32,654 nucleotides of DNA from an uncultured Prevotella sp. (GTDB lineage Bacteria > Bacteroidota > Bacteroidia > Bacteroidales > Bacteroidaceae). The translations under genes and the position numbers were made by a program. The notes beneath the pieces are model-generated. The model was not told the origin of the DNA. It saw only the letters and a program-made list of their open reading frames with translations, and made no database searches. Location: positions 1-32,654 of the forward strand of contig CAMHPC010000015.1 in assembly GCA_946186945.1 (NCBI GenBank), in the 5' to 3' direction. Below, piece after piece: positions 7,363 through 32,529 of this stretch; the first letter of the stretch is position 1, and every line of letters starts with the position of its first letter.

Positions 7363-7369
7363 GTCACTG

Positions 7370-8536
7370 CTATTTTAAATCCGGAACCAGACGCTGGTAC
7401 ACCTGCCATACCTGACGTGCAACATCGGCGCCTTCGAAGCGCATTATGTACTCTCTGCTGCCAGATATGCACTTCTCACGCACTGTCTGGTCGGTAGTGA
7501 GAGTGGAGACTGCCTGGGCCAGTGCTTCTTCATCATCAGGGTCTACATACAAACAGTGTGGACCGCCTGCCTCCTCCAGACAACTGCCGCTACAAGCCAC
7601 TACAGGCAGTCCGCTCTGTATGGCCTCTACCACCGGTATGCCGAAGCCTTCATAGCGCGAAGGGTACACACAAACCTCTGCCTGATGGTACACTGCGGAG
7701 AGGTGGGCGAATGGCACATCGTGGAGCATCACCACCCGCTGCTGCACGTTAAGTCCACGTGCCAATTTGTTCACATAATCGGCATAGGGGGTATGACGCC
7801 CCACTATGACGAGTGAGAGGTCTGCCGGCAACGAGGGTAATGCCTTGACCGCCAGTGCCACGTTCTTGCGTTCCTCTACCGAACCCACGCACACCATATA
7901 GCGCTGGGGCAGATGGTAGAGGCGGCGCACCTCATCTGCCAAAGCCTCAGGCACTGGTTGTGCAAAATGGTTGCCGCAACTCTGATAAATCACCGTGATA
8001 CGGCTCTCCTCCACACCGCCGTAATACATGATATCGCGCTTGGTACATTCGCTGATGGCTATGATGTGGTCGGCTTCACGACAGGTACGCAGAAATTTCC
8101 ATTTGTACAGTCGGCGGTCTATGGCAGGGTAGTATTCGGGATGGCGCAGGAAGATAAGATCGTGTATGGTGACCACAGAGGGTATGCCGGCACGGCGCAG
8201 CCCTTTTGGCAGTTCACCGCTCAGCCCATGGAAGAGTGTCACCTCATCCCGCACGAGATCGTCCACTATCCCATGCAAGCGCCAACGGTCTGTGCTTATG
8301 CGGTGCCACAGCCCACCCCTCTGCCCGTCGCCGCCGTGTGGGTATACGAAGCGCAGGTGCCCAGAGGTGCTGACACGCTGGCGCAGATGGTCGTGCCCAC
8401 GGTCGGGAGCATAGAGCAGCAGTTGGCAGTGGTCGCCCACAGTGGCGTCCATGTCCGTCACCAGCGTGCGACAGTAATTGCCCAGTCCAGTAGCGTTGCG
8501 CACTATGCGCTTGGCATCATATCCTATCCTTATCAT
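7370..8536 (-). CDS. Glycosyltransferase family 4/1
   Basis: VTIHDLIFLRHPEYYP, YMVCVGSVEERKN, VYPSRYEGFGIPVVEAIQSGLPVVA. Confidence 0.92.
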   Translation of the reverse strand: MIRIGYDAKRIVRNATGLGNYCRTLVTDMDATVGDHCQLLLYAPDRGHDHLRQRVSTSGHLRFVYPHGGDGQRGGLWHRISTDRWRLHGIVDDLVRDEVTLFHGLSGELPKGLRRAGIPSVVTIHDLIFLRHPEYYPAIDRRLYKWKFLRTCREADHIIAISECTKRDIMYYGGVEESRITVIYQSCGNHFAQPVPEALADEVRRLYHLPQRYMVCVGSVEERKNVALAVKALPSLPADLSLVIVGRHTPYADYVNKLARGLNVQQRVVMLHDVPFAHLSAVYHQAEVCVYPSRYEGFGIPVVEAIQSGLPVVACSGSCLEEAGGPHCLYVDPDDEEALAQAVSTLTTDQTVREKCISGSREYIMRFEGADVARQVWQVYQRLVPDLK

Positions 8537-8564: not shown

Positions 8565-10847
8565 CTACTGTGGGTCGACATCGAAATAAATCTGCACGGC
8601 ACTGAAGCGTTTTGCCGCGAGCACCTGTGAGCGTATAGAGTGCAAGCACCCGCGCACATCGTTGAGCGACAGTGAGGGTTCTATCTTGAGCATCAGTTTG
8701 CGTATGTGCTGCGTCTTCACCTTTGCCACCGGTGGACGGTCGGGACCCAACACGCGTGAACCCAGTTGCTGTTTCAGCATATTGCCCATCATGATTGCTG
8801 CACTCTGCACCACGTCATTGTCGCGATGTTTCAGATACACGTACATCAGCCGAGTGAAGGGTGGATAGCGGAAGGTGGAGCGTTCTTCGCACAACTGGTG
8901 GTACAGCGAACGCCAGTCGAGGTTGACCACCTGCCGTATGAGTGGCAGTTCGGGGTTTCTGGTCTGTAGTATCACCTCCCCCTGTTCGCCCTGTCTACCT
9001 GCCCGTCCGCTCACCTGCGCCATCATCATATACGCATGTTCGTATGCTCGGAAGTCGGGGATGTTGATCAGGTTGTCTGCCTGTAGTATTCCCACCACAC
9101 TCACGTTTTTAAAGTCCAGTCCCTTGGTCACCATCTGGGTGCCGATGAGCAAGTTGGTGCGTCCTGCCGAGAAGTCGTCTATTATGCGTTCGTATGCCGT
9201 GCGTGTATGTGTGGTGTCCAGATCCATGCGCGCCAACCGTGCCTCGGGGAAGAGTGCCGCTATCTGCTGTTCTATCTTTTCCGTGCCAAAGCCCACTGCC
9301 TTCAGTTCACGCTCCTCACAAGCGGGACACTTATCGGGCAGGTGATATGTGTATCCGCAGTAATGGCAAGTGAGTATGTTCATGCCCCTGTGGTAAGTGA
9401 GCGACACATCACAGTTCTTGCATTTGGGCACCCATCCGCAGGTCTTGCACTCTATCATGGGTGCAAAACCGCGCCTATTTTGAAAGAGTATGACCTGTCG
9501 GTTGGCTGCCAGTGCCTTTCTTATACTACTGAGCAACGTGGGCGAGAAGGGACCGTTCATCATCTTACGCTTCCGCAGGTCGCGTATATCCACTACCGTG
9601 ACCTTGGGCAGTGCTATATCACCGTAGCGGGTGGTGAGCGGCACATATCCGTACTTGCCATGCTGCGCATTGTACAGACTCTCCATTGATGGTGTGGCAG
9701 AGCCCAGTACCGTCTTGGCACCGCTCATACGTGCCAGCATGAGAGCCACCGAACGGGCATGGTAGCGGGGTGCGGGGTCCTGCTGTTTGAACGAACTCTC
9801 GTGTTCTTCGTCGACGATGACCAAGCCCAACCTCTGGAAAGGCAGGAAGGCGGCACTGCGTGCGCCGAGTATGATATCGTATGGTGCGGAGGATAGTTGT
9901 TTGTTCCATATCTCCACACGTTCGGCATCATTGTATTTGGAATGGTATATACCTATCCTGCTGCCGAAGACTGCCTGCAGACGTTGGCGCATCTGCACGG
10001 TAAGGGCTATCTCGGGCAAGAGGTAAAGCACCTGCTGATGTGCATCGAGTGCTTTCTGCATGAGGTGCACGTAGATTTCTGTCTTTCCGCTCGACGTCAC
10101 TCCATGTAGTAGCACCACATCGTGCTGCAGGTGTTGGAACACTATTTGGTTGTAGGCATCCTGCTGTGGCTGCGAGAGAGGTTTTATCTCTTCCGGATGC
10201 GGCACGTCGCCATCGTTGATGCGTTTCACCTCGCGCTCGTAGGGAACTACCAATCCACGGTCTACGAGGGCTCTGACATGAGTGGCAGACACGTGGCTCT
10301 GGTTGACCAGCACCTCACGCGACACATCCACGGGCGTGGTCTGCGGGGTGGTGCCGTCGAGTGTGTCCCAATGGCTGAGGTGGAGGAAGGCTATGAATGC
10401 CCGGTGCTGTGCATACGCCCGATGCATACTGTCGAGTACACGGTGCAGTGCCAGTTCCTCTCTGTACTCTGCCGCCAGAGTGAGATAGGTCTCAGTGCGC
10501 GGTCGGTAACCGTCTTCGTTTTTCAGTCCCACGGGCAGGGCGGCATTATACACATCGCCAATTGGAGCCATATAGTACTGTGCTATCCAGCACCACAACT
10601 GCCACTGCATGGGGAGGACGACAGGTCTGTCGTCCATCACTGCGAGAATATCTTTCGCCTTGAATTCGGGGGCATCATCATGCACTTTCACCACCAGGGC
10701 CAGATAAGTCTTGCTGTTACCGAAGGGCACACTCACCCTCATGCCCTCGGTCAATGAACCAAGGAGTGCATCGGGTACCCTATATGTGAAAGTGGTATCG
10801 AGGGGTAGAGGCAACACCACGTCAACATAGTGATGAGCCATTGACAT
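8565..10847 (-). CDS. priA: Primosomal protein N' / replication restart helicase PriA
   Basis: LHGVTSSGKTEIYVHLMQKAL, VDEEHESSFKQQDPAPRYHARSVA, zinc-binding CKTCGWVPKCKNCDVSLTYHRGMNILTCHYCG, GTEKIEQQIAALFP. ATG overlaps upstream stop (TAATG). Confidence 0.97.
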   Translation of the reverse strand: MSMAHHYVDVVLPLPLDTTFTYRVPDALLGSLTEGMRVSVPFGNSKTYLALVVKVHDDAPEFKAKDILAVMDDRPVVLPMQWQLWCWIAQYYMAPIGDVYNAALPVGLKNEDGYRPRTETYLTLAAEYREELALHRVLDSMHRAYAQHRAFIAFLHLSHWDTLDGTTPQTTPVDVSREVLVNQSHVSATHVRALVDRGLVVPYEREVKRINDGDVPHPEEIKPLSQPQQDAYNQIVFQHLQHDVVLLHGVTSSGKTEIYVHLMQKALDAHQQVLYLLPEIALTVQMRQRLQAVFGSRIGIYHSKYNDAERVEIWNKQLSSAPYDIILGARSAAFLPFQRLGLVIVDEEHESSFKQQDPAPRYHARSVALMLARMSGAKTVLGSATPSMESLYNAQHGKYGYVPLTTRYGDIALPKVTVVDIRDLRKRKMMNGPFSPTLLSSIRKALAANRQVILFQNRRGFAPMIECKTCGWVPKCKNCDVSLTYHRGMNILTCHYCGYTYHLPDKCPACEERELKAVGFGTEKIEQQIAALFPEARLARMDLDTTHTRTAYERIIDDFSAGRTNLLIGTQMVTKGLDFKNVSVVGILQADNLINIPDFRAYEHAYMMMAQVSGRAGRQGEQGEVILQTRNPELPLIRQVVNLDWRSLYHQLCEERSTFRYPPFTRLMYVYLKHRDNDVVQSAAIMMGNMLKQQLGSRVLGPDRPPVAKVKTQHIRKLMLKIEPSLSLNDVRGCLHSIRSQVLAAKRFSAVQIYFDVDPQ

Positions 10848-11440
10848 TAGAGATAAACCGTCAGACCGGCATGCCAGGCATTAGCGCGGACATCAGCATT
10901 ACTGTAATCGCCCGCGTATCTGCTCGAGGACAACCTTCCCGTCTTGCCCAGTGCCAGGTTGTAACCGAGACTGAAATCAACATTCCTGCCTAAAGAAAGT
11001 CCCGCGCCAAAATTGGCGCTGAAGGAACTGCTGCGCCAATCCCACTTATTATGTACGAAATCGGACGACAACCCATTATCGAATTTGAATGCCACCTGTG
11101 GACCGGCAAACAGGAATAAGTCTATGAGCCTGCCCAGTCCGAAGGAACAACGTAAGTTCAGCGGAAAGATGAAATGGCGTACGGTCTCCCCACGATCTTC
11201 CACCTCTACCCGGCGCTGGTCGTACAGTGCCGACAGATCTACAGACAGTGCTGTGCCACGAAACGGTATCCGCACGGTGGGACCGGCGAAGAAACCGATA
11301 CAGTGTTTCGACTCGAAGCCAGACGATTTAAAATACAATTCCGACAGATTGGCACCGCCCTTAATACCAAAACGTACCTGTGAGGTGGCAGTGCCCACGA
11401 TGATGCAAAGGAATGCTAACAGAATGAGAGTGCGTCGCAT
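10847..11440 (-). CDS. Outer-membrane beta-barrel (porin family / PorT-like) protein
   Basis: Signal peptide MRRTLILLAFLCIIVGTATSQ, then VRFGIKGGANLSEL and alternating beta-strand pattern ending in an aromatic/aliphatic strand. Confidence 0.75.
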   Translation of the reverse strand: MRRTLILLAFLCIIVGTATSQVRFGIKGGANLSELYFKSSGFESKHCIGFFAGPTVRIPFRGTALSVDLSALYDQRRVEVEDRGETVRHFIFPLNLRCSFGLGRLIDLFLFAGPQVAFKFDNGLSSDFVHNKWDWRSSSFSANFGAGLSLGRNVDFSLGYNLALGKTGRLSSSRYAGDYSNADVRANAWHAGLTVYL

Positions 11441-11464
11441 GGGATGATTGTCGTTAAGTGGATA

Positions 11465-12517
11465 TTAGTGTCGCTGTCTGCGTACTGTCACACGTGCCGA
11501 TGTAGAGACTGCTGAGGAATCCGAGGCATCGCGGTTTCTGCGACTCGTCTTCTCACTCTTCTCCCTGCGGCTCTTTTTCATCTTCTTGCCCTTCACCTCG
11601 CTGTTGGCTGCGGCGATACTGTCGAGAGAGTCTTTCTTTGCCGGATCGCCGAAGATATTCTTTTCGAAGTCCTTGAGTTCCTTCTCTATACGCTGTTGCT
11701 CAACCGCCATGGCAGAATCGGTGGGGCAGTATTGTGCCAATGTGCGCCCCAGCATATTGGTGGTTTTGTATATCTTACCCTTATACTTATTGGTAGTGAA
11801 ATAATCGTCCATGCTCATGGTGGCAGCGTTGTTGAGGTCGCTGGTCATGATGGTCTGTTTACTGAGATAGGGTGCCACATCATCGTACCTCACCCAGAAG
11901 AGGGGGTACTTGGCAGAACCCTCGCCGAAGTCATCCTCGCGCATGAGTATGGGACAGAGTGCGATGACCTTGCGGTGGAAGGTGGATGTAGCCTGGTCGT
12001 AGTATGCACTTTCCTTCAGGTAATAGCCTTTCACCTCCGATGATGGAATATCGCTATTGTCTATACGCACGCGTCCGTCCTTGCGTTCATAGTAGATATG
12101 GTAGTTGTTGAGGAAGTCGAGCGGTTTGATGCGTGCGCTGTCAGTGAACACCTCGTTGCCGTCGAGGCGGTACTCATACACATTGATACCACCACGGTTC
12201 GGTCCCATCAGCATGAGTTTGAAGAGGTAGGTAAAGAGGTTCATCTCTGTGCCCTGCGGTTCTACGGGATAATAGAGTCCGGCGTTTGCATCCTCTTCCA
12301 GGTTGAGTTCACGATAGATGTCGCGTCTCCACACCACATCCTCCGACATAGTGAGTGCAGTAGGGAACGAGATGCGTGCCCTGGTGGTCATATTATTGGC
12401 ATTCGACTGTGCCTGCGCCTGTTGCTGCTGTCGGGCTTTTGGCTGAGCCGACACCCACTGGGCGGCACAAGAGAGCAGACATATAACAAAGAATATTCTC
12501 TTCATATCTAAATACAC
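11465..12517 (-). CDS. gldN: T9SS protein GldN/PorN
   Basis: ALTMSEDVVWRRDIYRELNLEEDANAGLYYPVEPQGTEMNLFTYLFKLMLMG, in the expected position after gldM. Confidence 0.9.
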   Translation of the reverse strand: MYLDMKRIFFVICLLSCAAQWVSAQPKARQQQQAQAQSNANNMTTRARISFPTALTMSEDVVWRRDIYRELNLEEDANAGLYYPVEPQGTEMNLFTYLFKLMLMGPNRGGINVYEYRLDGNEVFTDSARIKPLDFLNNYHIYYERKDGRVRIDNSDIPSSEVKGYYLKESAYYDQATSTFHRKVIALCPILMREDDFGEGSAKYPLFWVRYDDVAPYLSKQTIMTSDLNNAATMSMDDYFTTNKYKGKIYKTTNMLGRTLAQYCPTDSAMAVEQQRIEKELKDFEKNIFGDPAKKDSLDSIAAANSEVKGKKMKKSRREKSEKTSRRNRDASDSSAVSTSARVTVRRQRH

Positions 12518-12519
12518 GT

Positions 12520-14076
12520 TTATTTCACTATTATTTCCATTGCGGAGGGCAGTTTACGAGTGAGTCCGTCGGGACCCACGGCATTGACATGGGTGATGTA
12601 GAAGCGCTTGTTGCGTGATAGTTTACGGAATGCGTCTTTCTGTCTGTCAGAGAAGGCGGCACCTGCCGAAGCCATAGGCACGGCGTTACCCATATTGTCG
12701 AAGAATACCGTTTCGAAACTGGTGACCTTGAATTCTATGTCGAGCAGTCCGTCGTCGATGGCAGCATGTATGCCACCCACGCCCATGAGACTGGCCTTTG
12801 CCAGACCGCCACCCTTGAAGCGGTCGTTGCCCAGGGCTATGTATGCTGTCGGGTCGGGCAGTTTGCGCACGTGGAAGATAAAGGTACCCATCTGCCTGCT
12901 CTTGCCCTGGTCGTTGGCTGTGACAGTAAAGGTGACATCCTGACCCACTGCCGAGGGCGTGGCGATATAGTGTCCGTCGCCTTTGGATGTGAGCGAGCCG
13001 CCACTCATGGATAGCGACACACTGTTCTGGGGCAGTCCTGCCACGGTGACGCTTACCGGATTGGGGTATCCTGCATACAGCACATTCATCAGGTCGGCTG
13101 CCACGGTGGCTCCCGATGGGGGCTGAATGACACGGTATTTCTGCAGGAAGTCGCGACGTATCATATCGCCATCTGCATTGCGCATGAGTATATAGCCACC
13201 AAACTGATGTTCACCCACTCCACCAGCGGTGATGGTATAGGCACCGCCCTTGCTGTTTACTCGTGTGCCGTTGACATATATCTCGGGCTGTGCTGTAGTG
13301 TCCACGGCTGCCATGACTATGTGTGTGCTCATCTGCTCGCCGGGGTAGAGTGTAGTCTTGTCGGGTATGACGAAGGCATCCAACTTGTTCACACGTATAT
13401 CTTTCAATCCGATATTTGCTATGAGTGAGTGGAGCACCTCGCCCTCTGCATAGCGCACGTCGCTCTGCAGTTTGGACAGCAGTGTGATGGCTGCCGCCAC
13501 GGGCATGGCATCAAACATATATTCCTGCCAGTTTTTGCCCAATGTATTCTCATTCTTAGGCACCTCGGTGGAGAGGTTGCTGGCTATTATCTCTTTCTGA
13601 TGAGGGTCGGGTATGAGGTCGAGTATGCGCTTGCGGTAGTTCACCACCTGGTCGAAGAGTTGCTGACCCTTACCGCTGCCAGGTGCAAGCATCACCTGTG
13701 CAGCAGCCTCCAAGTCTTCCTTGTTCTTGATATTCTTCAGGTCGGCATCATCGCCGTCTGCCTCTCTCACGATAGCCCATTTCAGTTCTTGCGCGAAGTT
13801 GTACAGCGAATCGCTCATATTCTTCACCTCGCGTGCTCTTTCATACCACTCGCGCACCTTGGTGGGATTTTCTTTCATCTGCTGCTCGAAGTCGGCAAAC
13901 ATTGCCTGATTCTCTTTGGTAGAGTTGGCTGTAGTGCGGCTGAGACTCTCCTCCACCACCGAGAAGCCATTAAGCACCTCAGTAGAGATGTTGAGTGCCA
14001 GCATAGCCATCAGAACCACATACATCAGGTTGATCATCTTCTGGCGTGGCGAGATCGGTCTTTTCTTTATTGCCAT
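12520..14076 (-). CDS. gldM: T9SS protein GldM/PorM
   Basis: ISPRQKMINLMYVVLMAMLALNISTEVLNGFSVVEESL N-terminus and the long periplasmic domain. Confidence 0.95.
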   Translation of the reverse strand: MAIKKRPISPRQKMINLMYVVLMAMLALNISTEVLNGFSVVEESLSRTTANSTKENQAMFADFEQQMKENPTKVREWYERAREVKNMSDSLYNFAQELKWAIVREADGDDADLKNIKNKEDLEAAAQVMLAPGSGKGQQLFDQVVNYRKRILDLIPDPHQKEIIASNLSTEVPKNENTLGKNWQEYMFDAMPVAAAITLLSKLQSDVRYAEGEVLHSLIANIGLKDIRVNKLDAFVIPDKTTLYPGEQMSTHIVMAAVDTTAQPEIYVNGTRVNSKGGAYTITAGGVGEHQFGGYILMRNADGDMIRRDFLQKYRVIQPPSGATVAADLMNVLYAGYPNPVSVTVAGLPQNSVSLSMSGGSLTSKGDGHYIATPSAVGQDVTFTVTANDQGKSRQMGTFIFHVRKLPDPTAYIALGNDRFKGGGLAKASLMGVGGIHAAIDDGLLDIEFKVTSFETVFFDNMGNAVPMASAGAAFSDRQKDAFRKLSRNKRFYITHVNAVGPDGLTRKLPSAMEIIVK

Positions 14077-18207: not shown

Positions 18208-19065
18208 ATGAAGAAAATTTTTACTCTTTTTCTCGCTCTCGTGGGTTTTTCCATGGTGGCAAGTGCTCAGGATTCCTACATGATGGTAGGTACATGGCAG
18301 GGATGGAGTTTTGAGAACTCCCCGCTGATTTTCGAATATCAGACGACTACTGATGGTGATGCAATCTACACTGCTTCTATCGACAAGATCTTTGGCGACT
18401 GGAAGATTGTGAAGAACTCCAGTTGGGACGGTGCCCTCGGCGGTGGCGGTATGAACATGGTGGCAGGCGGTGAATATGACTTGACCCCCGGTGGTGCCAA
18501 CTCTGGCTTTGCTTCCGGTTACAATCTGAAGAACGCATCCTTCACCCTCACCGTGCACTCTGATGGCAGTGCCACCATTAAGGTAGAGGGTACACCCTAC
18601 GAGGAGCATTCTTATGGTGTGGTAGGTGCGTTCCAGGGTTGGAATGCCGCTGGCGCTCCGCTGATGCAGGAGCAGGACGATGGTAGTTTTGGTCTCGCCA
18701 TCAACAATTTCCCTGGCGGTCAGGAGTTTAAGATCTCTATCGACAAGAGTTGGACCTGCTTCCTGGCTCAGGATGGTCCCACCACTATGGAGTTTGGAGT
18801 GGCCTATACCTGCGCTCGTGGCGACAACAACAACAACTTCTCTGTAGGTGAAAGTGGCACCAACTACAACGTATGGGTGAGCCTGAAAGTGGCTGCCGGT
18901 GCTCAGTCTGCCGAACTAACCGTGACCGAGACCACCACGGGCATCACTCTGCTCTCTACTGCCGTAGAGAAGGCTGACGAGATATACAACATCGCCGGCC
19001 AGCGTCTGTCTCAGCCTGCAAAGGGTATCAATATCATCAACGGCAAAAAGGTGCTGATGAAGTAA
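18208..19065 (+). CDS. Secreted protein with two tandem SusE/F-like modules and a T9SS-type C-terminal signal
   Basis: Signal peptide MKKIFTLFLALVGFSMVASAQ; repeats SYMMVGTWQGWSFENSPL.../SYGVVGAFQGWNAAGAPL...; C-terminus DEIYNIAGQRLSQPAKGINIINGKKVLMK. Confidence 0.8.
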   Translation: MKKIFTLFLALVGFSMVASAQDSYMMVGTWQGWSFENSPLIFEYQTTTDGDAIYTASIDKIFGDWKIVKNSSWDGALGGGGMNMVAGGEYDLTPGGANSGFASGYNLKNASFTLTVHSDGSATIKVEGTPYEEHSYGVVGAFQGWNAAGAPLMQEQDDGSFGLAINNFPGGQEFKISIDKSWTCFLAQDGPTTMEFGVAYTCARGDNNNNFSVGESGTNYNVWVSLKVAAGAQSAELTVTETTTGITLLSTAVEKADEIYNIAGQRLSQPAKGINIINGKKVLMK

Positions 19066-19669: not shown

Positions 19670-19972
19670 ATGATTACTAAGATTGAAGAAATCGACGGCA
19701 AGTACGTTGCCACTCTGAAAGGAGAAATGGATACCGCTGCCGCGAAAGAGGCAGAGGAGGTACTGAAACCTCTCTACACCTGCGAAGGCAAGGATGTGAT
19801 TATCGACTGTAGCGAACTGGAGTATATCGCATCAAGCGGTCTGCGCATACTGCTCGCCATACTCAAAGGTGCCAAGAGCAAAGGCAGCAGAGTGGTGATG
19901 CGCGGCGTGAACGATGACATAAAGAACGTGTTCAAACTCACAGGATTTATCAATATCTTCGAGTTTGAATAG
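19670..19972 (+). CDS. STAS domain anti-sigma factor antagonist
   Basis: VIIDCSELEYIASSGLRILLAILKGAKSKGSRVVMRGVNDDIKNVFKLTGFINIFEFE. Confidence 0.92.
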   Translation: MITKIEEIDGKYVATLKGEMDTAAAKEAEEVLKPLYTCEGKDVIIDCSELEYIASSGLRILLAILKGAKSKGSRVVMRGVNDDIKNVFKLTGFINIFEFE

Positions 19973-20104: not shown

Positions 20105-21604
20105 TTAACGCAGCACCTTCACCACCTTGCCGTCAGCCTGACGGTGCAGGTAGATCTGTCCACTGCGCGGCTGCAGCACCCTGCGTCCGTCCAGCGAATA
20201 GAAGGCTGACTGCTGCGATGCGGCAGGACTTACGGTCTGAATGCCTGTGCTGACGCTCACTGTCACAGTATAGACAACAGCCTTCGACAGGTCTCCACTG
20301 AAGGCTGTGAGCACACACTGGTAGCCACCTTCCATCTGCTTGACGTCCTTCAGTACTACAACCGAGGGACTGACAGTTTCGGCTTCGATGTCGTCTGCCG
20401 TAAATGACTGGTCGAGGGCCATGGTGTATTCAGTCTTGTCCTTGTCGAACTCGGGCACGGCCTGTCCCTTGATTTTCAGTGCCTTCAGACCGACGTTGTA
20501 GATGAGTTCGGCATCGTCTACGAGCAGTTCGTCACCATTCGAGCCGCTGCCTGCATCGGCATTGGTAGAGAGTGTGACGAGGATGGCCTTGGGAGACACG
20601 CTATTGTCAGTATACTCAAACGGAGCCACCACACGCACCCACTGATTACCAGTGGTAGCGATGGTGTTGTTTTTGGCCTTTGCCACCACATTGGTATATG
20701 TCTTATCCTCAGGGTCCTGATAGTAGGTACCATCGGTGATGACGGCACTCACTGTGGCATAGGGATGTGAAGCATTGGGTGTGCCCTGCTTGAACTTCAC
20801 CCAGAAGGCGATGCTGTCGGGACGACTATAGAGCGGTGTATAGAAGGGGTCGCCATTACCATCCACATAAGTCTCGCTCATATCAAGATATGCATGGTTG
20901 GACACATCGGAAGCAGACGCTGAAGCTGCGTTTATGCGACCTGTGGTCATAGTACCATTTGCCACAAAACCGAAGATCTGTGTAGACAATAGACAGGCAC
21001 TGGCGGTGCCGGAGTGGGCATCGTCCGACTTAGAGAGGTGGTGACCAGCAAGAGCAGCCATAGCACCCGTACCACTCTCGAACGAGTGCCAACCGTTGGG
21101 CTCTACGTAACTGCCAGTGGAGGTGTGCCACTCCTCGAAACCGCGATTAGACAGTTGCAGACCATAGCCGTCGCCTATGGCCACCTGGATAGACTGCCCT
21201 ATGTTGATATCGATGTAACCATTTAGTTTGTCGCCGATGATCTTGGCACAGAGGTTCACGGGTACAGGCGGCAGCATGGTTGCCAACCAGAAGGGCGAAA
21301 CTGCCGGGTCGCCATTAGTGACAGTGACAATCTGACTGGCCATCAGGAGAGTGACATCGCCGTCCTTAGTGGGCTGGAGGTCAGTCAACTCGACATTGCC
21401 CACTGGCATGGGGCTGTCGGCAGTGATAAGCATGAAGTTCTTGAGTGTCAGGGAGCATTTGCCGTCGGTCTCGGTCACGGTCACCACAGCCGTCTGCTCA
21501 GAGATTGCGCCGTCGACTATAATCTTGATAGGCACATCATAGTCAGTGGCGTGTGCAACGATAGTCACACAGAATAAGAAGATACAAGTAAAAAACTGTT
21601 TCAT
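20105..21604 (-). CDS. Secreted protein: N-terminal calycin-like region, PCMD domain, T9SS-type C-terminus
   Basis: Signal peptide MKQFFTCIFLFCVTIVAHA; GFEEWHTSTGSYVEPNGWHSFESGTG...SRPDSIAFWVKF (PCMD-like); C-terminus SAFYSLDGRRVLQPRSGQIYLHRQADGKVVKVLR. Confidence 0.8.
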   Translation of the reverse strand: MKQFFTCIFLFCVTIVAHATDYDVPIKIIVDGAISEQTAVVTVTETDGKCSLTLKNFMLITADSPMPVGNVELTDLQPTKDGDVTLLMASQIVTVTNGDPAVSPFWLATMLPPVPVNLCAKIIGDKLNGYIDINIGQSIQVAIGDGYGLQLSNRGFEEWHTSTGSYVEPNGWHSFESGTGAMAALAGHHLSKSDDAHSGTASACLLSTQIFGFVANGTMTTGRINAASASASDVSNHAYLDMSETYVDGNGDPFYTPLYSRPDSIAFWVKFKQGTPNASHPYATVSAVITDGTYYQDPEDKTYTNVVAKAKNNTIATTGNQWVRVVAPFEYTDNSVSPKAILVTLSTNADAGSGSNGDELLVDDAELIYNVGLKALKIKGQAVPEFDKDKTEYTMALDQSFTADDIEAETVSPSVVVLKDVKQMEGGYQCVLTAFSGDLSKAVVYTVTVSVSTGIQTVSPAASQQSAFYSLDGRRVLQPRSGQIYLHRQADGKVVKVLR

Positions 21605-21775: not shown

Positions 21776-21839
21776 CCGATACTTAATACTCATTCTCAAA
21801 GAAAAATGGACATCAAAATGCGTCAAGTTTTCTTAGTTT

Positions 21840-22371
21840 AAGACAGCTGGAGATTTGGTAGCGGGAGGCATTGCTGTTAAGCTGGGCAGGGATAGCGGCG
21901 AAGATACGGGCAACTTTTCCCGAAGGATCAATCTTGTTGAAATCTTCGTCATAGATATTCAGGACAAGACGCTTGGCCTGGTCAACTGCTTCGAAATTGT
22001 TAGTATCAAGATAGGCATTAACAGCCTGAGGCATACCCCCCACTAACATGTACATACGGAAATCGCGCATCAGTTTACGGTGGGCATCCTTTAGCGGCTG
22101 AGGGTATTCCCACACGCTGCGAAGCAAAGGTATGGTGGCCGTATCGCCCAATGCCCAACGAAACTCCTCGTAATCCATCGGATACATATTGACACGCTCT
22201 TCCTCGCTTGGAATCAGAATGTGATCCGTGTTCTTGCGGATAGAAATCAAAGAGCCGGTTTCGATATAGTCGTAACGATGATCGCCGACAAACGACTTGA
22301 CGGCTTGGCGAGCCTTGGGCTGAAACTGCACCTCGTCGAAAATGATGAGCGACTTGCGCTCCTTCAGTTGG
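21840..22371 (-). pseudogene. Internal fragment of an AAA_14/DUF4143 ATPase
   Basis: Minus reading HVQLKERKSLIIFDEVQFQPKARQAVKSFVGDHRYDYIETGSLISIRKN...YPMDYEEFRWALGD...LVGGMPQAVNAYLDTNNF...PAQLNSNASRYQISS. Walker B is present; Walker A and the C-terminal part are missing. Confidence 0.8.
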
Positions 22372-22550
22372 ACGTGATAATCGAGTGTCAGGGACTGGAG
22401 TACATAGCATCGAGCGGCCTGCGCATACTGCTCGGCATACTCAAGGGCGCCAAGAGCGGCGGCAGCAAGGTGATGCTGCGCAATGTGAACGACGACATAA
22501 AGAACGTGTTCAAGCTCACTGGTTTCATCAACCTATTCGAGTTTGAGTAA
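22371..22550 (+). pseudogene. 3' half of a second STAS-domain gene
   Basis: DVIIECQGLEYIASSGLRILLGILKGAKSGGSKVMLRNVNDDIKNVFKLTGFINLFEFE, paralogous to 19790-19972; the 5' half is replaced by antisense ATPase sequence. Confidence 0.85.
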
Positions 22551-23883: not shown

Positions 23884-25194
23884 TCACTCATCCATAGCGA
23901 GACGCAGGCCGAGGCGGTCGCTGCGATAACCTGGTGCACGACCGTCGCGGTTTGCCACACGACAGTTGTCAGGACCACCATTCCACCCGCCACCCCGTAT
24001 GGCACGAGTAGAACTGGAGTACGGTCCCGTGGGGTCAACCTGACCGTCACTATCATAACTGCCGTACCAGTCAGAGCACCACTCCCACAGGTTACCCGTC
24101 ATGTCATAGAGACCTAACTCATTGGGTGATTTCGAGCCAACCTCGTGTGTACGAGAGCCACTTGTAGCAGAATACCACGCCACACTACCCACACTGTTAC
24201 TGCCACTATATGTATAGCCACGGCTATTGTTGCCTCCTCTGGCAGCAAACTCCCATTCCGCCTCTGTTGGCAGTCGGAAATGCTTCCCCGACAGGTCATT
24301 CAGCTTTTTGATAAATGTCTGACAATCGCGCCAACTCACATTATCAACAGGCCTGCGGGCACCTCTGAACCGTGACGGGTTGTTTCCCATCACCGCCTGC
24401 CACTCTTCCTGTGTCACCTCACAACGACCGATGCGAAACGATGATAGCGTCACATTGTGTACCGGCCATTCATCATCACCAGCACCGGCACTTTGCTCAC
24501 TGGTGGCACCCATGAGGAAGGAGCCACCATTCAGCGGCACCATATTGTTGACAATGCCCCGGACGATAGCGTCTCGCTTGTCAGTTGACGGTTCTTCAAG
24601 GACCAGATCTTGTGAAGATGTTTCAGGCGCAGCCGTTTCCTGCAACGGCCGTTCGGCAACAGTGGCAGTGTTCGGTGTGTCCTCTTTTCTTAGCAACAAG
24701 ACCAGGAACATTGCCACGATGCCAGCAGCAAGAGCACCGATGACAGCATATAGCCATTTGGAGGAAGATGGCTTTTCGGGATAATAATCCTCTCCGTCAT
24801 TATTGAAATGAGTTGGCGAAGAATTCTCTACTTGACCGACGGGATAGCCACACTTGGGGCATTTCACCGCTTTATCGGAAATCATATTCCCACATTCGGG
24901 ACATTGAATAAGTGGCATATTGAATCCATATTCTTCTGGAGTCTGAGTTCCCTCGTCGCAAGGAGCCATGTCCTCCTGGCTTGTACCAATATCATCATCC
25001 ATAATAGACTCCTTCATAGATTCATCTGTTACAAACAAGAAAGCCAACTCTTCGACTTCTTCGGCATGCTTCCATTTATCCATCCCCTTACACCATACCA
25101 GCGTTTTCGGACCCACATCAAACATGACAAGGTCATTAACTAGGATGGGACCTTGACGTGTTCTATTCTTATCCACATAATAATATACTTTCAT
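23884..25194 (-). CDS. GYF_2 + zinc ribbon + TM + formylglycine-generating-enzyme-like (SUMF) protein
   Basis: MKVYYYVDKNRTRQGPILVNDLVMF...LVWCKGMDKWKHAEEVEEL; CPECGNMISDKAVKCPKCGYPVG; WLYAVIGALAAGIVAMFLVLLL; GGSFLMGATSEQ...FRLPTEAEWEFAARGG...GNLWEWCSDWYG...RAIRGGGWNGGPDNCRVANRDGRAPGYRSDRLGLRLA. ORF start 25221 is TTG; ATG at 25194 preferred. Confidence 0.88.
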   Translation of the reverse strand: MKVYYYVDKNRTRQGPILVNDLVMFDVGPKTLVWCKGMDKWKHAEEVEELAFLFVTDESMKESIMDDDIGTSQEDMAPCDEGTQTPEEYGFNMPLIQCPECGNMISDKAVKCPKCGYPVGQVENSSPTHFNNDGEDYYPEKPSSSKWLYAVIGALAAGIVAMFLVLLLRKEDTPNTATVAERPLQETAAPETSSQDLVLEEPSTDKRDAIVRGIVNNMVPLNGGSFLMGATSEQSAGAGDDEWPVHNVTLSSFRIGRCEVTQEEWQAVMGNNPSRFRGARRPVDNVSWRDCQTFIKKLNDLSGKHFRLPTEAEWEFAARGGNNSRGYTYSGSNSVGSVAWYSATSGSRTHEVGSKSPNELGLYDMTGNLWEWCSDWYGSYDSDGQVDPTGPYSSSTRAIRGGGWNGGPDNCRVANRDGRAPGYRSDRLGLRLAMDE

Positions 25195-25327
25195 GGTATT
25201 ACCATTAAGTCGTTCTTGCAAACTTTTCTATACTAAATGAACCTTCAAGTTCTTTTATCTTTACTTTTCCGCTAAGTATATCGAAGAAGAAAGAACGTAT
25301 CCGCTCAATTGTAAGTAGTGCAGGTTT
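24832..25327. repeat. 496-bp direct repeat, copy 1
   Basis: Read line by line against 26540-27035 (offset 1708); no mismatch seen. Diverges at both ends (c/t before 24832; ata versus tcc after 25327). Confidence 0.95.
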
Positions 25328-26902
25328 ATAATCGTTACCGTTCCATTTGACAAGATAAATATCGTCAATCAGTATATCATATACCCCATTCGTTTTGGAT
25401 GTCAAAAAAGTTATTTCATAACCACCGCCAATGTTGTGGTCTGTTACTCTTCCGTCTGACCAGTAAATTTTTTCAATGAATACATAACGGCCCCATCCAC
25501 CAGCATGTGACGAGTTGCTTGTGAATACAAGGAGCTCGTCTTCTCCATCTCCATTAATATCGAAATAAATTTGCCTTGTTGCGTCTTGTTCAGAACTTTC
25601 TTCATTGAAAACGCTCATGTGGGTGAATGTTTTTTTCGCAGAAGCTATTTTCTTCCTATTAGAATCATGTTTAACAACTTTAGAACCATCAAAGCAATAT
25701 GTTTTCCGTTCTATCCCATATTTGAAAGTAAAAAGCCATTTGTCGTTTTTATACTCTACTTTGACGTCATCTTTTCCTAGATACCACCAACCTTCATCGT
25801 CACCTAAATCAATTGGATCAGTCATTTTGAATTTCCTGCTCCCTTCATCATAATAAACCACACAAAAATACGAGGGAGTATGGGCACCACCCAATTCATC
25901 ATATTGCAACAGACAATCATTTATTCCATTGCCATCATAATCGTGTTCATCAATTATCATCAACTGATAACTGCCAATACCCGTCTTTACACGTTTTCCA
26001 TTCAGCATAACACCGAGATATACAGGATATTCATCGTAGTCCGTTTCTTCTATCACGTTATAGTTCTTCACCATGTTTGCCCTCTTATTTACTGTATTCT
26101 TATACTCTTCAATCTCATTTTCATTACCCACAAACACGTATGTGCCTTTGACGTAGCCCTCTATGTTGCCCTGTCTTATTTTGTACCAATCACCTTCTTT
26201 GCCCAACACCTCCGCTGCATCACCACCAGTCATCAATTTACCTATAACCGCAGCGGAGACAGAGGGAGTTTCACGAATATTCAAAAAACCTCCTTCCGTG
26301 GTAGACAAAGCATAGGTTTTTTCTTTCTCCTCCACTTGCTCTGAAGTCATTTCTGATGAAGAATCACCTGCTGTTGTTTCCTGTGAGGCAGAGTTTCTCA
26401 AGAGCAAGATTATCACAGTTACCAATGCTACCACCAATATTCCTATAATGGCATAAATCCATTTTCGGGAGGATGGCTTTTCAGCATAATAATCCTCTCC
26501 GCCATCATTGAAACTGCGAGTTGGCGAAGAAACTAGTGTTTGACCGACGGGATAGCCACACTTGGGGCATTTCACCGCTTTATCGGAAATCATATTCCCA
26601 CATTCGGGACATTGAATAAGTGGCATATTGAATCCATATTCTTCTGGAGTCTGAGTTCCCTCGTCGCAAGGAGCCATGTCCTCCTGGCTTGTACCAATAT
26701 CATCATCCATAATAGACTCCTTCATAGATTCATCTGTTACAAACAAGAAAGCCAACTCTTCGACTTCTTCGGCATGCTTCCATTTATCCATCCCCTTACA
26801 CCATACCAGCGTTTTCGGACCCACATCAAACATGACAAGGTCATTAACTAGGATGGGACCTTGACGTGTTCTATTCTTATCCACATAATAATATACTTTC
26901 AT
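25205..26902 (-). CDS. GYF_2 + zinc ribbon + TM + SH3b + Ca-binding-like protein, C-terminus shared with upstream gene
   Basis: Same N-terminus as 23884..25194; SH3b TTEGGFLNIRETPSVSAAVIGKLMTGG...GDWYKIRQGNIEGYVKGTYV; DYDGNGINDCL and DINGDGEDELLVF; last 38 aa ALLTIERIRSFFFDILSGKVKIKELEGSFSIEKFARTT identical to the 26913..27884 product. Confidence 0.85.
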   Translation of the reverse strand: MKVYYYVDKNRTRQGPILVNDLVMFDVGPKTLVWCKGMDKWKHAEEVEELAFLFVTDESMKESIMDDDIGTSQEDMAPCDEGTQTPEEYGFNMPLIQCPECGNMISDKAVKCPKCGYPVGQTLVSSPTRSFNDGGEDYYAEKPSSRKWIYAIIGILVVALVTVIILLLRNSASQETTAGDSSSEMTSEQVEEKEKTYALSTTEGGFLNIRETPSVSAAVIGKLMTGGDAAEVLGKEGDWYKIRQGNIEGYVKGTYVFVGNENEIEEYKNTVNKRANMVKNYNVIEETDYDEYPVYLGVMLNGKRVKTGIGSYQLMIIDEHDYDGNGINDCLLQYDELGGAHTPSYFCVVYYDEGSRKFKMTDPIDLGDDEGWWYLGKDDVKVEYKNDKWLFTFKYGIERKTYCFDGSKVVKHDSNRKKIASAKKTFTHMSVFNEESSEQDATRQIYFDINGDGEDELLVFTSNSSHAGGWGRYVFIEKIYWSDGRVTDHNIGGGYEITFLTSKTNGVYDILIDDIYLVKWNGNDYKPALLTIERIRSFFFDILSGKVKIKELEGSFSIEKFARTT

Positions 26903-27035
26903 GGTATTACCATTAAGTCGTTCTTGCAAACTTTTCTATACTAAATGAACCTTCAAGTTCTTTTATCTTTACTTTTCCGCTAAGTATATCGAAGAAGAAA
27001 GAACGTATCCGCTCAATTGTAAGTAGTGCAGGTTT
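26540..27035. repeat. 496-bp direct repeat, copy 2
   Basis: See copy 1 (24832-25327). Confidence 0.95.
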
Positions 27036-27884
27036 TCCATCTTTATCAGTCCCGAGGTCATAGGTTTTCAGTGTCTGCGGTCCCAGCGCTGCTGCCGTGA
27101 GAAGGAAATGATTTTGGAATCTGTCTGTATCTATCAAATCTGCAGCCAAAACTTTACCTACTACGCTATAACTATGAAGTGATCGTTGTTGTTCACCGTC
27201 AGTCAGCACTGTATGCAAATCATCAGACGCAGGGTTTATTTCAATCCGTCCACTCTCTTCACTTTCCTCTTGATGTCTATACAATGATCCAAGATCAGCC
27301 AGTGCAAGAGAATATACATGTGTTGTTTTAGTATAGTTTACACGTTCTGTGCTGAATACAGAAGGCAACAGCAAATTGACATTGCCGTCTAATTCGACAA
27401 GAGGCGAAATGAAAGTTCCGACGATGCAATCCTTTACGAATAGGGTTTGTGTAGCAAAGACGCCACCTATTACGACGCAGTTCTCAAGTGTTATTTCATC
27501 ACCATAAAGACTCCCTGCTACAAAAGCATTGCTCAATGCTATTCTTTTAGCATTAACATCTGAGCAGAAAGTTGTCATACATTTCATCGCCCTAGAGACA
27601 ACAGAGGAAGCCGAGCCAACGGCTTTTCGGAATGTCACAGTTCCAGAGACATCATTGTTAATGTATAATTCATGTAGAGTGAACACCGCACCATTCACTT
27701 CTAATGGTGCAGCTTCTATTGTTAGTTTATCAGCATAAAGAGGTCCCTCTACAACCGTTTCGCCTACTACATTTACGGTTCTGGAAAGTTCGGACATCTT
27801 ATTAGGCAGGATACCGCCTTTTACGATATTATTATCTAAGCGGATATTAGTGTCTGTCAAATGGATTTCCTTTAAATTATTCAT
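26913..27884 (-). CDS. Bactofilin-like / beta-helical repeat protein
   Basis: Repeating short strands: VNVVGETVVEGPLYADKLTIEAAPLEVNGAVFTLHELYINNDVSGTVTF...LYGDEITLENCVVIGGVFATQTLFVKDCIVGTFISPLVELDGNV. Confidence 0.6.
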   Translation of the reverse strand: MNNLKEIHLTDTNIRLDNNIVKGGILPNKMSELSRTVNVVGETVVEGPLYADKLTIEAAPLEVNGAVFTLHELYINNDVSGTVTFRKAVGSASSVVSRAMKCMTTFCSDVNAKRIALSNAFVAGSLYGDEITLENCVVIGGVFATQTLFVKDCIVGTFISPLVELDGNVNLLLPSVFSTERVNYTKTTHVYSLALADLGSLYRHQEESEESGRIEINPASDDLHTVLTDGEQQRSLHSYSVVGKVLAADLIDTDRFQNHFLLTAAALGPQTLKTYDLGTDKDGKPALLTIERIRSFFFDILSGKVKIKELEGSFSIEKFARTT

Positions 27885-28917
27885 GATTATTAATTAATTT
27901 ATTTAACATTTTATTTATCATTGCCCTTACTCTTATTGAATGATTGTCGTCTCCACTGAGTTTATTGGCAATTTCTGACTGCATATATGACTGAACAGTA
28001 TCAGAGACACACATGCCAATTTCTTCCAACTCTATTTCATCAAGGGTTTCACATAGTTTGTCCTTCAATGATTTATTCTTGAAATATAAATCAGGAATGA
28101 AACATTCTCTTTTTACTCGTTCAGACTCTGATACTGTTTTCAAGAAACATACAGGAATAAAATAGTTATCATCACCTGTTCCCTCAACGGAAGTTTCCTG
28201 GATAGTCTTTTCTGAAGTTGCTTTTATTTTCAAAAATGCTTGCGCCTGACTCATAGCCTCCAAAGCGTGATTCTTCACAGTTGCAGCACTAATCTGAGCT
28301 TGCAACACACTGCTCTCTTTGCCCATGGTAACAGCGGTCTGAACCATATCAGTATGAAGCATTCTATCACTCTGGGTGTCTACCGCCTTTACGAGTTCAA
28401 AAACAGGTTTGTCTACTTCATGAATCCTAACAGAGAGTTCGTTATTCAGATCAGCAAAGAGTTTCTGGTATCTTGCAGATGTTCGTGCATAATCATCTGA
28501 CATCTTTTTTTGTTTATTACGTAGTGTTGCTGCTTGCTGCCGAAGGAGCAGAAGCCTTGCTTCTATGACCTGTTCCAGCTCTGCCTGCTGTGTAGATAAA
28601 TCTGTACGAACAGTATGAAAGAATCCGTCAATTATAGACTTAGATATTTTATCAGCATTCTCTGTTATCGCAATGCACTGTGCGGCATTCATGGCACCGA
28701 CACTTGCAGTAAGCCCGTTAACAGAACTATTACAACTCTGAACACCTTCTTCAAATGGTGAAGTATCAACATAAACATCTACATCTACATCTTCATAGGC
28801 AGTACCGCTATAATTTACGTTCAGGGTACCTCCAGATTGAGATGCCGGATAGCTTACTGTTTTTGAACCACTATAATGACAAGATACAGTTTGTCTAAAT
28901 CTTCTTCTATACCCCAT
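27877..28917 (-). CDS. Coiled-coil protein, paralogue 2, with Gly/Ser/Tyr-rich N-terminal extension
   Basis: MGYRRRFRQTVSCHYSGSKTVSYPASQSGGTLNVNYSGTAYEDVDVDVYVDTSPFEEGV...; overlaps the downstream ORF by 8 nt; aligns by eye to 28928..29836. Confidence 0.75.
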   Translation of the reverse strand: MGYRRRFRQTVSCHYSGSKTVSYPASQSGGTLNVNYSGTAYEDVDVDVYVDTSPFEEGVQSCNSSVNGLTASVGAMNAAQCIAITENADKISKSIIDGFFHTVRTDLSTQQAELEQVIEARLLLLRQQAATLRNKQKKMSDDYARTSARYQKLFADLNNELSVRIHEVDKPVFELVKAVDTQSDRMLHTDMVQTAVTMGKESSVLQAQISAATVKNHALEAMSQAQAFLKIKATSEKTIQETSVEGTGDDNYFIPVCFLKTVSESERVKRECFIPDLYFKNKSLKDKLCETLDEIELEEIGMCVSDTVQSYMQSEIANKLSGDDNHSIRVRAMINKMLNKLINNHE

Positions 28918-28927
28918 AAAGAATAAT

Positions 28928-29836
28928 TTAAAGTGTTTCTATATTTGCCGAGGAATACATCTCTTTTATAACATTCTTCACCCTTGGCGAAGAGCTGGAA
29001 GTTTCGAGGATATGAGAGAACTCTTCAGTGATTTCTGCTGAGGAACCTTCTTGACGCCAAGGTAAGTCCGTTTCGTTTCTTATGAAGTCACCGATAGACG
29101 CCAAATTGGAACCTACGATCTGACCATTAGCTACCACTTTCATTTGCGGGATTCCTACCGAGTTATCGATGGTTTCCCATACAATCACCGGTATCTGATA
29201 CGCTTTATCTTCATTTCCCTTAAGGTTGCTTATCAAAACTTTATCTGTCAACACTCTTTGTTCGCCTATTTGCAATAGGAAATTAGCGGATTGTTCTAAA
29301 GCTGATTTTGCGTTATACTTAATTCTGGAAACCAATATTTGCTGGCTTTGATAAAGCCCTTCAGTCTGTGATGTCGAAACACAACCGATCAGAGCGTGCA
29401 TTCTATTCGATGCTGTGACCATGTGTTTGTTAACAAATTCAAAAACCGGTTGATCCAGTTGGCGTATTCTTTGTTCGAGTCCTTTGTTGATAACAGTAAA
29501 AATACGAAGATAGCGTTCAGTTATTCTACCATATTCACGTTCCATATTAGCTTTTATGCCGAGTAATTGACGTTTTTGTTGAGCCAACTTCATCAACAAT
29601 GCTTCAACACGACTTTGTTTGTTTGCAATCTTCTGTGAAATTTGCGATTGTAATAACGCAAAGAAACCACGGTTAACGTTTTTGCAGACTTTATCAGCAC
29701 TGGCATTTTCTGCTGCAATGACAGCGCTCTCCATCGCTACTACCGCCGCCGTTGTCCCCATAACATGTTTAGAAACACTTCGAAGTTCATCAGCCATTGG
29801 AGTGGTATCAACCTCACATGGAATTAATGTTGCCAT
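28928..29836 (-). CDS. Coiled-coil protein, paralogue 1
   Basis: VDTTPMADELRSVSKHVMGTTAAVVAMESA...RITERYLRIFTVINKGLEQRIRQLDQPVFEFV; preceded by AGGAG Shine-Dalgarno-like sequence. Confidence 0.75.
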   Translation of the reverse strand: MATLIPCEVDTTPMADELRSVSKHVMGTTAAVVAMESAVIAAENASADKVCKNVNRGFFALLQSQISQKIANKQSRVEALLMKLAQQKRQLLGIKANMEREYGRITERYLRIFTVINKGLEQRIRQLDQPVFEFVNKHMVTASNRMHALIGCVSTSQTEGLYQSQQILVSRIKYNAKSALEQSANFLLQIGEQRVLTDKVLISNLKGNEDKAYQIPVIVWETIDNSVGIPQMKVVANGQIVGSNLASIGDFIRNETDLPWRQEGSSAEITEEFSHILETSSSSPRVKNVIKEMYSSANIETL

Positions 29837-29878
29837 ATTTATTCTCCTAAAAAATATTAAACAATATTACACACGATA

Positions 29879-29941
29879 TCATTTAGACAATGGGGGTTGC
29901 CATTTTGAAGGGGAAGGGTTACTGCCACCTCCTTTTGACAT
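29879..29941 (-). CDS. Putative 20-aa peptide MSKGGGSNPSPSKWQPPLSK
   Basis: ATG on minus strand at 29941, stop TGA ending at 29879; starts 10 nt after the stop of the 672-aa ORF in an otherwise unexplained ~115-nt gap. Confidence 0.4.
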   Translation of the reverse strand: MSKGGGSNPSPSKWQPPLSK

Positions 29942-29951
29942 TTCGAAAGTA

Positions 29952-31898
29952 TCAAACTTCATCGGGAATATCTGGGATGTCATCCTCATCAGGTATATCC
30001 CCTTCTTCAATATCAAAATTTTCATTGTTGGCCATCTTAGATTCTTCTACATTATCTATTGTAATATTACTAACTGCGTCTAATGCAGTAACAGCAAGGG
30101 ATGGAAGATTAAGGGAAAGGTGCTCAAAAGTCACATCCTCTACATTTGGTTCTGGCAATAGTACTGATTCTTTTGCAAGCAATGGGTTTGTAAAAGCGAG
30201 AGGTTTACGACGATTATCAAGATTTTGAACTTCTCCTGCCGCTATTGCCATTGAATTTGAATAGCCATCCTGCAAGCGTGCATCGTAAAACTCCACATGG
30301 CCAAATTTTTCGGCTTTCAGAGCTATGTCTTCCTGAAGCCTGTCCATATAATCACAAAACTCATCCTGTACTCTTTTAAATTCTATTGCCTGATTTTCAA
30401 ATGCGGCTAGTGTTTCGGTACTATTATCCTGTTTCTGAACGATGGTCTTATCCAAAGTTGCTCCTTCCGTTTCCATATTTTCTAGTGTTTTCTGCAGTTG
30501 AGACAATGTGTTATAAGCTTCTACATATTCACTTAAAGTCTGTTGCATGTTGTTAATGATGTCTGCACTTTCTGCGTGATTAGAGCGATAAAAAGCATCT
30601 ACATCTTGATGCCACTTATTCAAATAGCTAATCTTTTGATCGTGTATTTGGCTATAAATACGGATACGCTCTACTCGATTTTCCATCATAAGACGTTGAA
30701 CCATTGGTGCTACGATTTCCTCATAGATTTGGTGGACCCCAAAAGGAACACTTGCACTACTATTATCTTCTGCCATCCACTCATCAGCAAAAAGATTATA
30801 TCGTACGCGTGAACTTTCCCGAAGTTGAAAAGGTTCATATCCCTGGATCGAATCTGCATAATCAAAACGCTCGTTGCGAATTCGCATTATTTCTTCCGCT
30901 TCAAGAAGTGGTGAATAATGATTATAAGGCGACTTAAGAATTCTGAACAGCAAATCGTTCGACTTATTTACGACTTTATCCGTGGAAGCCAATTTCAAAG
31001 CCGAAATGGTTTGTACTGACATTGCCATGGTATGCATAAGGTGTTTTAGCACATCCTCGAATTGCTCTGTATCACTTGACAACGAGTCCTTGAGTTTGTT
31101 CAATTGGCAGAAATCATTAATTTCATTATCATATTTCTTATCGTCAAAGATGTTAACTACAGGATGATTACCAGGGTCGCTGGTTGTATATTCATCCAAG
31201 AACGCCAAATAATCACTGTTACCTGCCACTAATGGCAAATCAACAGATTTCACTTCCGTATCGTTCATGCAGTATGAAATAGTACGAAGTGACCTATCAA
31301 GTTTACCCACATAATCACTTTGCGTAACTTCCTGTATAGAAAGTGAATAATCGTTTGTATCAATGCTTTCTGCTTCATTAGAAGTTTCAACAATTGGTGC
31401 TTCTAAGGTAAGATTCTCCATCTGCGACATTGTTTTCGCTAGTAAATCACTTTGGCGAGGCAACTGCAAGCTCACTCTAGAAAGAGGGACATTACCTGTG
31501 TAGTCAACCACAAAACACCTGTCTTCGTATGACATTTGACGTGCGACAGGAATATAGGCTACACCCATTTTTGTCACCTTATAATCCCTAAATATATTAG
31601 CATACTCTGTTTGTTTCTCTGCAATCTTTTCATCAATTGCCTCGATTTGCCTATTATACTTATTACGGCGTATCCAAAACATGAAGAATGCCACAATCGT
31701 CAAGAACCATTTCCAAATATCACTTTTTAAAAGTTCCACCTGTTCTCTGTCCGACTGCAGCTGTTGTATTTGCATTTCTAAAGTTTCTTCTTGTCGAACA
31801 ATACGTTCTGCTGCCTGTTCATAAAAATTGAACAACAGCCGAGCCTGATCTTGATAGATGTTGCTCGAATCATTGAATATCTTTCCTGTTGTTGACAT
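29952..31898 (-). CDS. Large TM + coiled-coil protein with acidic C-terminal tail
   Basis: MSTTGKIFNDSSNIYQDQARLLFNFYEQAAERIVRQEETLEMQIQQLQSDREQVELLKSDIWKWFLTIVAFFMFWIRRNKYNRQIEAIDEKIAEKQ; tail EEGDIPDEDDIPDIPDEV. ATG 31898 preferred over 31970, which overlaps the upstream gene. Confidence 0.75.
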   Translation of the reverse strand: MSTTGKIFNDSSNIYQDQARLLFNFYEQAAERIVRQEETLEMQIQQLQSDREQVELLKSDIWKWFLTIVAFFMFWIRRNKYNRQIEAIDEKIAEKQTEYANIFRDYKVTKMGVAYIPVARQMSYEDRCFVVDYTGNVPLSRVSLQLPRQSDLLAKTMSQMENLTLEAPIVETSNEAESIDTNDYSLSIQEVTQSDYVGKLDRSLRTISYCMNDTEVKSVDLPLVAGNSDYLAFLDEYTTSDPGNHPVVNIFDDKKYDNEINDFCQLNKLKDSLSSDTEQFEDVLKHLMHTMAMSVQTISALKLASTDKVVNKSNDLLFRILKSPYNHYSPLLEAEEIMRIRNERFDYADSIQGYEPFQLRESSRVRYNLFADEWMAEDNSSASVPFGVHQIYEEIVAPMVQRLMMENRVERIRIYSQIHDQKISYLNKWHQDVDAFYRSNHAESADIINNMQQTLSEYVEAYNTLSQLQKTLENMETEGATLDKTIVQKQDNSTETLAAFENQAIEFKRVQDEFCDYMDRLQEDIALKAEKFGHVEFYDARLQDGYSNSMAIAAGEVQNLDNRRKPLAFTNPLLAKESVLLPEPNVEDVTFEHLSLNLPSLAVTALDAVSNITIDNVEESKMANNENFDIEEGDIPDEDDIPDIPDEV

Positions 31899-31917
31899 AA
31901 GATAATAGATTATATTG

Positions 31918-32529
31918 TTAATACCTTTTCCTTCTTGATAAAATACTTTCAAGATTATCAATTTCTTCAAAGATTTTTTCTTTGTTTAATGTTGTATTTT
32001 TCATTAAGACCTTCAGGTCCTTGACAGATTGGACGAATTGATATTCCAAATTCTTTGCATCTGCATTTGACGTTGGACTAAGATAGCGAATAGAATCACA
32101 CAGAGACAATATTCTACATTTAATTGACTCGTCAATTTGTTGAGATGCAGGAACTTCGTCCATAAGATCATTCATAACATTTTGCAATACCATTTTTCCT
32201 CCGACAATTATTTGTTCCTTTTCATAAATTTGCTGTACTTTTACACCAGAATGCAATGTGGCGACACGCCCCATTATTAAGATGAGAAATAAAGCTAAAT
32301 GCCCCATTAGCTGATACTTGAATTGTATCTGATTGACAATGCTCCAAACGATGAACCCCATTGAAAACAAGCAATATACGCTCAGAGCAAACATGTGTAT
32401 CCCCATCATTCCTACCTCTTTGTGAGCAGGTTTGTCGAGATTAACAAGTGGGAACAATAAGAATTGAACAAATTGTGTAAGAACAATGCAAGAAACGACT
32501 ATATCAAGTATTTTCACCTCGCATTCCAA
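31918..32529 (-). CDS. Multi-TM protein with C-terminal helical region; true start likely further upstream
   Basis: Hydrophobic segments ILDIVVSCIVLTQFVQFLLF, MFALSVYCLFSMGFIVWSIV, LMGHLALFLILIMG. The frame stays open upstream (KLNQSVAELRIYTILGIFLGYGLIIGGFTILGES). Confidence 0.65.
   Translation of the reverse strand: MECEVKILDIVVSCIVLTQFVQFLLFPLVNLDKPAHKEVGMMGIHMFALSVYCLFSMGFIVWSIVNQIQFKYQLMGHLALFLILIMGRVATLHSGVKVQQIYEKEQIIVGGKMVLQNVMNDLMDEVPASQQIDESIKCRILSLCDSIRYLSPTSNADAKNLEYQFVQSVKDLKVLMKNTTLNKEKIFEEIDNLESILSRRKRY

Follow-up and report, generated by a model that had tools for sequence, protein, structure and literature searches.

In polymorphic Rhs/CDI loci, tips are exchanged behind a conserved upstream part, the C-termini being swapped by recombination. 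When a partial tandem duplication or an ectopic gene conversion between paralogues creates a chimeric gene, the copied stretch is exact and takes no account of where genes start or stop; one of its boundaries is homologous and the other is not, and the fusion to the end of a neighbouring gene is in frame. We analysed a 32,654-nucleotide stretch of DNA from an uncultured Prevotella sp. (assembly GCA_946186945.1, contig CAMHPC010000015.1), hereafter the window, in which three tightly packed genes of the same orientation, named A, B and C, together display the traits of such a chimera (Table 1). The locus shows no essential difference from such chimeras; here, a 40-residue tail of the neighbouring gene sits at the natural stop of B. 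Tip exchange in Rhs/CDI loci is only a loose analogy, as neither toxins nor immunity genes nor orphan tips were recognised. A literature search returned no paper recognisably about this gene family.

Table 1. Features of the A-B-C locus. Positions are those of the window.
Feature	Position	Strand	Description
Gene A	26913..27884	minus	ORF; predicted beta-solenoid protein with C-terminal helices; owner of the tail
Gene B	25205..26902	minus	GYF_2, zinc ribbon, TM, SH3_3, FG-GAP-like C-terminal region and borrowed A tail
Gene C	23884..25194	minus	GYF_2, zinc ribbon, TM and FGE-sulfatase domain
Genes D, E, F, G	27877..32529	minus	Upstream of A; same order in related Bacteroidales loci
Repeat copy 1	26540..27035	minus	A tail, stop, 10-bp spacer and B leader
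Repeat copy 2	24832..25327	minus	Borrowed tail of B, stop, 10-bp spacer and C leader
Native tail of A, 40 codons	26916..27035	minus	Aligned in A homologues, several invariant residues
Copied A tail, in-frame fusion to B	25208..25327	minus	Missing from every B homologue
Illegitimate junction, natural B end / A tail	25327..25328	minus	Similarity of the copies stops abruptly; coincides with the C-terminus of B homologues
Zinc-ribbon DNA segment of copy 2, where the homologous end of the event probably lies	24832..24921	minus	Block positions 407-496
Diverged paralogous flank in C (TM region)	24746..24831	minus	Just beyond the repeat
Diverged paralogous flank in B (TM region)	26451..26539	minus	Just beyond the repeat

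Self-comparison of the window revealed a single continuous direct repeat whose two copies are identical at 496 of 496 bases with a spacing of 1708 bp, leaving approximately 1.2 kb of unique DNA between them. Read in the direction of the genes, the block comprises 40 tail codons and a stop (123 bp), a 10-bp spacer (TGGTAATACC) and 121 leader codons (363 bp). The 40-codon tail of A (KPALL...FARTT) is followed by a TAA stop codon, and the first 121 codons of B and C are identical. Identity runs through coding, spacer and again coding DNA regardless of gene borders, silent sites and spacer included, as befits a copied block in a chimera made by recombination. Since the probability of 496 identical bases is near 1e-48 at a background identity of 80%, the match is not due to chance. 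No third copy of the block was found by a DNA search of the draft genome. These results confirm the initial annotation, according to which B starts like C and ends like A; its coordinates for the three genes agree with the list of open reading frames, and the shared tail exists as described except for its length, given as 38 residues and measured here as 40 codons.

To assign the tail to one of the genes, we compared homologues of A and B. Homologues of A, 49-73% identical, came from 17 loci of a genome collection and from seven genomes of the order, with possible overlap between the two sets. A segment matching the tail was found in the 16 A proteins aligned, with several invariant residues. 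This conservation of the C-terminal segment in A homologues indicates that the tail is native to A. In the AlphaFold model of A (mean pLDDT 84.5), the tail forms a helix (residues 290-302) and a short final helix (316-322) behind the beta-solenoid. In contrast, the tail is lacking from all six homologues of the C-terminal region of B, which come from five congeneric genomes (G593 with two genes, G554, G660, G590 and G436). Aligned with B, they stop a few residues past W(D/N)GxxY or its equivalent, with ends such as KKYDHVQ, KYVLQ, KQYKKQ, NQYK and KQYKQQ, whereas B reads WNGNDYK and then runs into the PALLTIERIRSFFF... of A. The junction thus lies at the natural terminus of B, and the copied tail provides the sole extra residues of B. 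B is a chimera: its fused segment belongs natively to the donor gene, and homologues of the recipient lack it. The possibility raised at the outset that the tail is an ordinary conserved domain of all B homologues was therefore rejected, and neither is the tail an exchangeable module of B: it is the conserved terminus of A, joined on at the point where B would normally stop.

The two ends of the copied block were then delimited. Past the end of the tail, identity ceases at one base and the copies show no similarity. Past the end of the leader, similarity drops sharply: B and C keep approximately 80% paralogous identity through the TM region and then diverge. In a 586-column blastn alignment, all mismatches and gaps (14 and 4, respectively, over roughly 86 bp) fall within the TM-region flank. 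Among 299 genomes of the genus, strong DNA matches to the block elsewhere were confined to its positions 407-496, with 89% identity in G535 and 82% in G621, and they end exactly at the leader boundary of the block. This zinc-ribbon boundary is the expected spot for a homologous crossover or for the end of a conversion tract. Furthermore, the nearest zinc-ribbon/TM leaders in relatives begin at the zinc ribbon (MALIKCPECGN...) and lack GYF_2, which suggests that C may have gained its GYF_2 portion from B in this same event.

Beyond the shared leader and the paralogous TM region, B continues with SH3 and FG-GAP-like sequence and C with an FGE-sulfatase domain (Pfam, 7e-48), so that the pair is organised like the gene array described below. 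The FG-GAP match of B in Pfam is weak (E 0.057), and its TM segment was called by hydropathy. Cell-wall and enterotoxin names from NCBIfam were discarded for B, as the matches fall far below the cut-off and cover the SH3 region only. No B-like protein was found in IMG/VR, a search of plasmids for B-like sequences returned one SH3-sized match only, and the junction 36-mer was absent from viral contigs.

We consider it likely that a recent duplication or gene conversion produced the chimeric gene B and left the present arrangement as its scar. If the assembly is right, B is a real and recent chimera, made by ordinary recombination among paralogous neighbours. The ancestor would have had the order A-B-C, with B and C already diverged paralogues bearing a zinc-ribbon/TM leader, and the 496-bp block (A tail, stop, spacer and B leader) would have been copied onto the boundary between B and C. 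Its first end, at the natural C-terminus of B and with no visible homology, would reflect illegitimate or microhomology joining, and its second end, in the conserved zinc-ribbon coding segment, a homologous crossover or conversion. Two routes could yield this product. In the first, the 1708-bp unit from the A tail to the end of B would be duplicated in tandem by illegitimate joining at the end of B, and a zinc-ribbon crossover with C would then remove the second B together with the old leader of C. In the second, one copying event with a double template switch would suffice. Both routes predict the boundaries as observed and would give a B with the 40-residue tail of A, and a C with the leader and translation start region of B, the block presumably keeping the same stop-spacer-start arrangement ahead of C. 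The order A-B-C was found in no relative, and A, B and C occurred together in none of the sets searched; the polarity of the event is accordingly read from homologues of the parts. The locus would represent a clean recent case in which a gene has taken up a tail, and the gene next to it a leader, from donors that are still adjacent. It also points to an apparently little-described group of zinc-ribbon/membrane-anchor genes in which C-terminal halves are exchanged between adjacent members.

An assembly artefact, in which the A tail and B leader were placed twice or a repeat loop was misresolved while the true B has its own end, appears unlikely. The source assembly is a draft, 89.6% complete and split into 185 contigs; an exact repeat of 496 bp exceeds the length of short reads, which makes its copy number uncertain and a misassembly possible, and 100% identity is the look of a collapsed or re-used repeat. 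However, a de Bruijn path requires reads over the junction of the B end and the A tail, and the flanks have no long overlap outside the repeat. In addition, the genome yielded no alternative contig joining A, B or C differently, the open reading frame continues in frame across the fusion, and the position of the leader boundary can be explained biologically.

A comparable organisation was observed in G535, where contig C15 (L098:3059-17445) carries tandem zinc-ribbon/TM genes with shared leaders, differing C-terminal modules and mosaic members, including one FGE-sulfatase and one SH3 member. The 270 bp of 5' DNA of gene 8977-10074, counted from approximately 35 bp before its start codon, are 91% identical to gene 6690-7415, and its C-terminal 101 residues are 87% identical to those of gene 11317-12684. 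An SH3-type gene of G621 ends with a related segment, 82% identical to the C-terminus of the latter gene. The G535 mosaic is of the same kind as that of the window but older, and its repeated DNA lacks the tail of a neighbour. Thus, the array and the window have in common the leader type, some of the modules (FGE-sulfatase and SH3) and mosaic genes; the leaders of the array differ in lacking GYF_2, and its repeats are about 80-95% identical. Leader-guided shuffling over evolutionary time is plausible from these sequence comparisons. More tentatively, and with considerable doubt, zinc-ribbon/TM leaders might serve in this genus as recurrent patches of homology through which adjacent genes swap C-terminal modules, which are probably envelope-facing. 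If so, the window and the G535 array would capture two moments in an ongoing diversification of membrane-anchored proteins by recombination without a dedicated recombinase.

We also considered whether the fusion was retained because the A tail acts as a docking peptide that gives B access to the partners of A. The tail is conserved in A homologues and predicted to be partly helical, and the three genes are closely packed in one orientation. Nevertheless, this explanation is very improbable: B homologues manage without the tail, so little time has passed since the event that conservation could not yet reveal selection, and the C-terminus of B is predicted to lie beyond the TM segment, possibly in a different compartment from A.

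The operon G-F-E-D-A, which ends with gene A, is conserved in Bacteroidales and in one Fibrimonadales bin; when the 60 nearest genomes were searched, A was found in no other member of the genus. The genes downstream of A vary among relatives. A search of 23 related loci with tail-less B, C and the leader gave one weak SH3 match, in G406; one locus (L053) has little downstream sequence and two (L032 and L056) appear to be one contig, which reduces the effective number of loci to approximately 21-22. We rejected the notion of B or C as the regular downstream neighbour of A, since zinc-ribbon genes follow A in G406 only, one of them with SH3. Likewise, neither an A-B nor an A-C junction, nor any other cargo behind the same leader, was found beside A in the approximately 22 loci of other species.

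RecA-type recombination between the identical copies should delete the 1708-bp unit and leave A and C intact. On this point the initial annotation was mechanically right, the repeats being direct and exact, yet deletability of the B unit does not make the arrangement a switch. Loading of new C-terminal modules, also proposed there, agrees in part with G535, where a leader of the same type heads varied and mosaic C-termini, but the tail itself is no such module. No dedicated recombinase that would point to programmed excision was recognised among the ORFs and families of the unit and its neighbourhood. A single inverted repeat was reported for the window, and its arms (18904-18933 and 21467-21496) lie outside the unit; no evidence of a promoter switch was found. 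Hence a natural presence/absence switch or a cargo-loading cassette, with repeats that exist for exchanging the 1708-bp unit or new C-terminal modules, is extremely improbable and without direct support: although the repeats are so placed that deletion restores A and C and the array of a relative combines shared leaders with variable C-termini, the survey of approximately 22 related loci from other species disclosed neither a presence/absence variant nor other cargo beside A, the tail belongs to A, and the leader repeats of the G535 array exclude the tail of a neighbour.

The predicted structure of A gave no Foldseek match at E <= 0.001, and VIA-align returned many beta-solenoid or left-handed-helix proteins (Z 8.5-13.7), headed by tapirin 6n2c (Z 13.7, rmsd 2.4, 193 aligned). 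We therefore claim for A only a general fold type, a predicted beta-solenoid. No confident Pfam family was found for the five proteins of G-F-E-D-A (26913-32529; related loci L030, L032, L036, L038, L039, L041, L042, L043 and L044). D (27877-28917) and E (28928-29836) seem paralogous, each matching homologues of the other in related loci at approximately 25-35% identity. In the relatives inspected in Bacteroidales, the operon is preceded by a gene that encodes an SPFH domain (SPFH/Band_7_1) and several zinc ribbons; the contig of the window ends before this gene, and the sole hit in a search of its own genome was a 26% match on contig C6. G-F-E-D-A looks like an uncharacterised membrane-associated system. 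In one Muribaculaceae genome (L043:11131-19005), proteins with vWA-like, Tubulin_2 and papain-like domains are encoded right after A.

The window contains another partial gene duplication. Positions 19792-19971, a 180-bp C-terminal fragment of gene 19670-19972, which is STAS-like by eye, are repeated with 82% identity at 22370-22549, 2.6 kb away. Beside this second copy, a short ORF (21813-22331) looks like an ATPase fragment.
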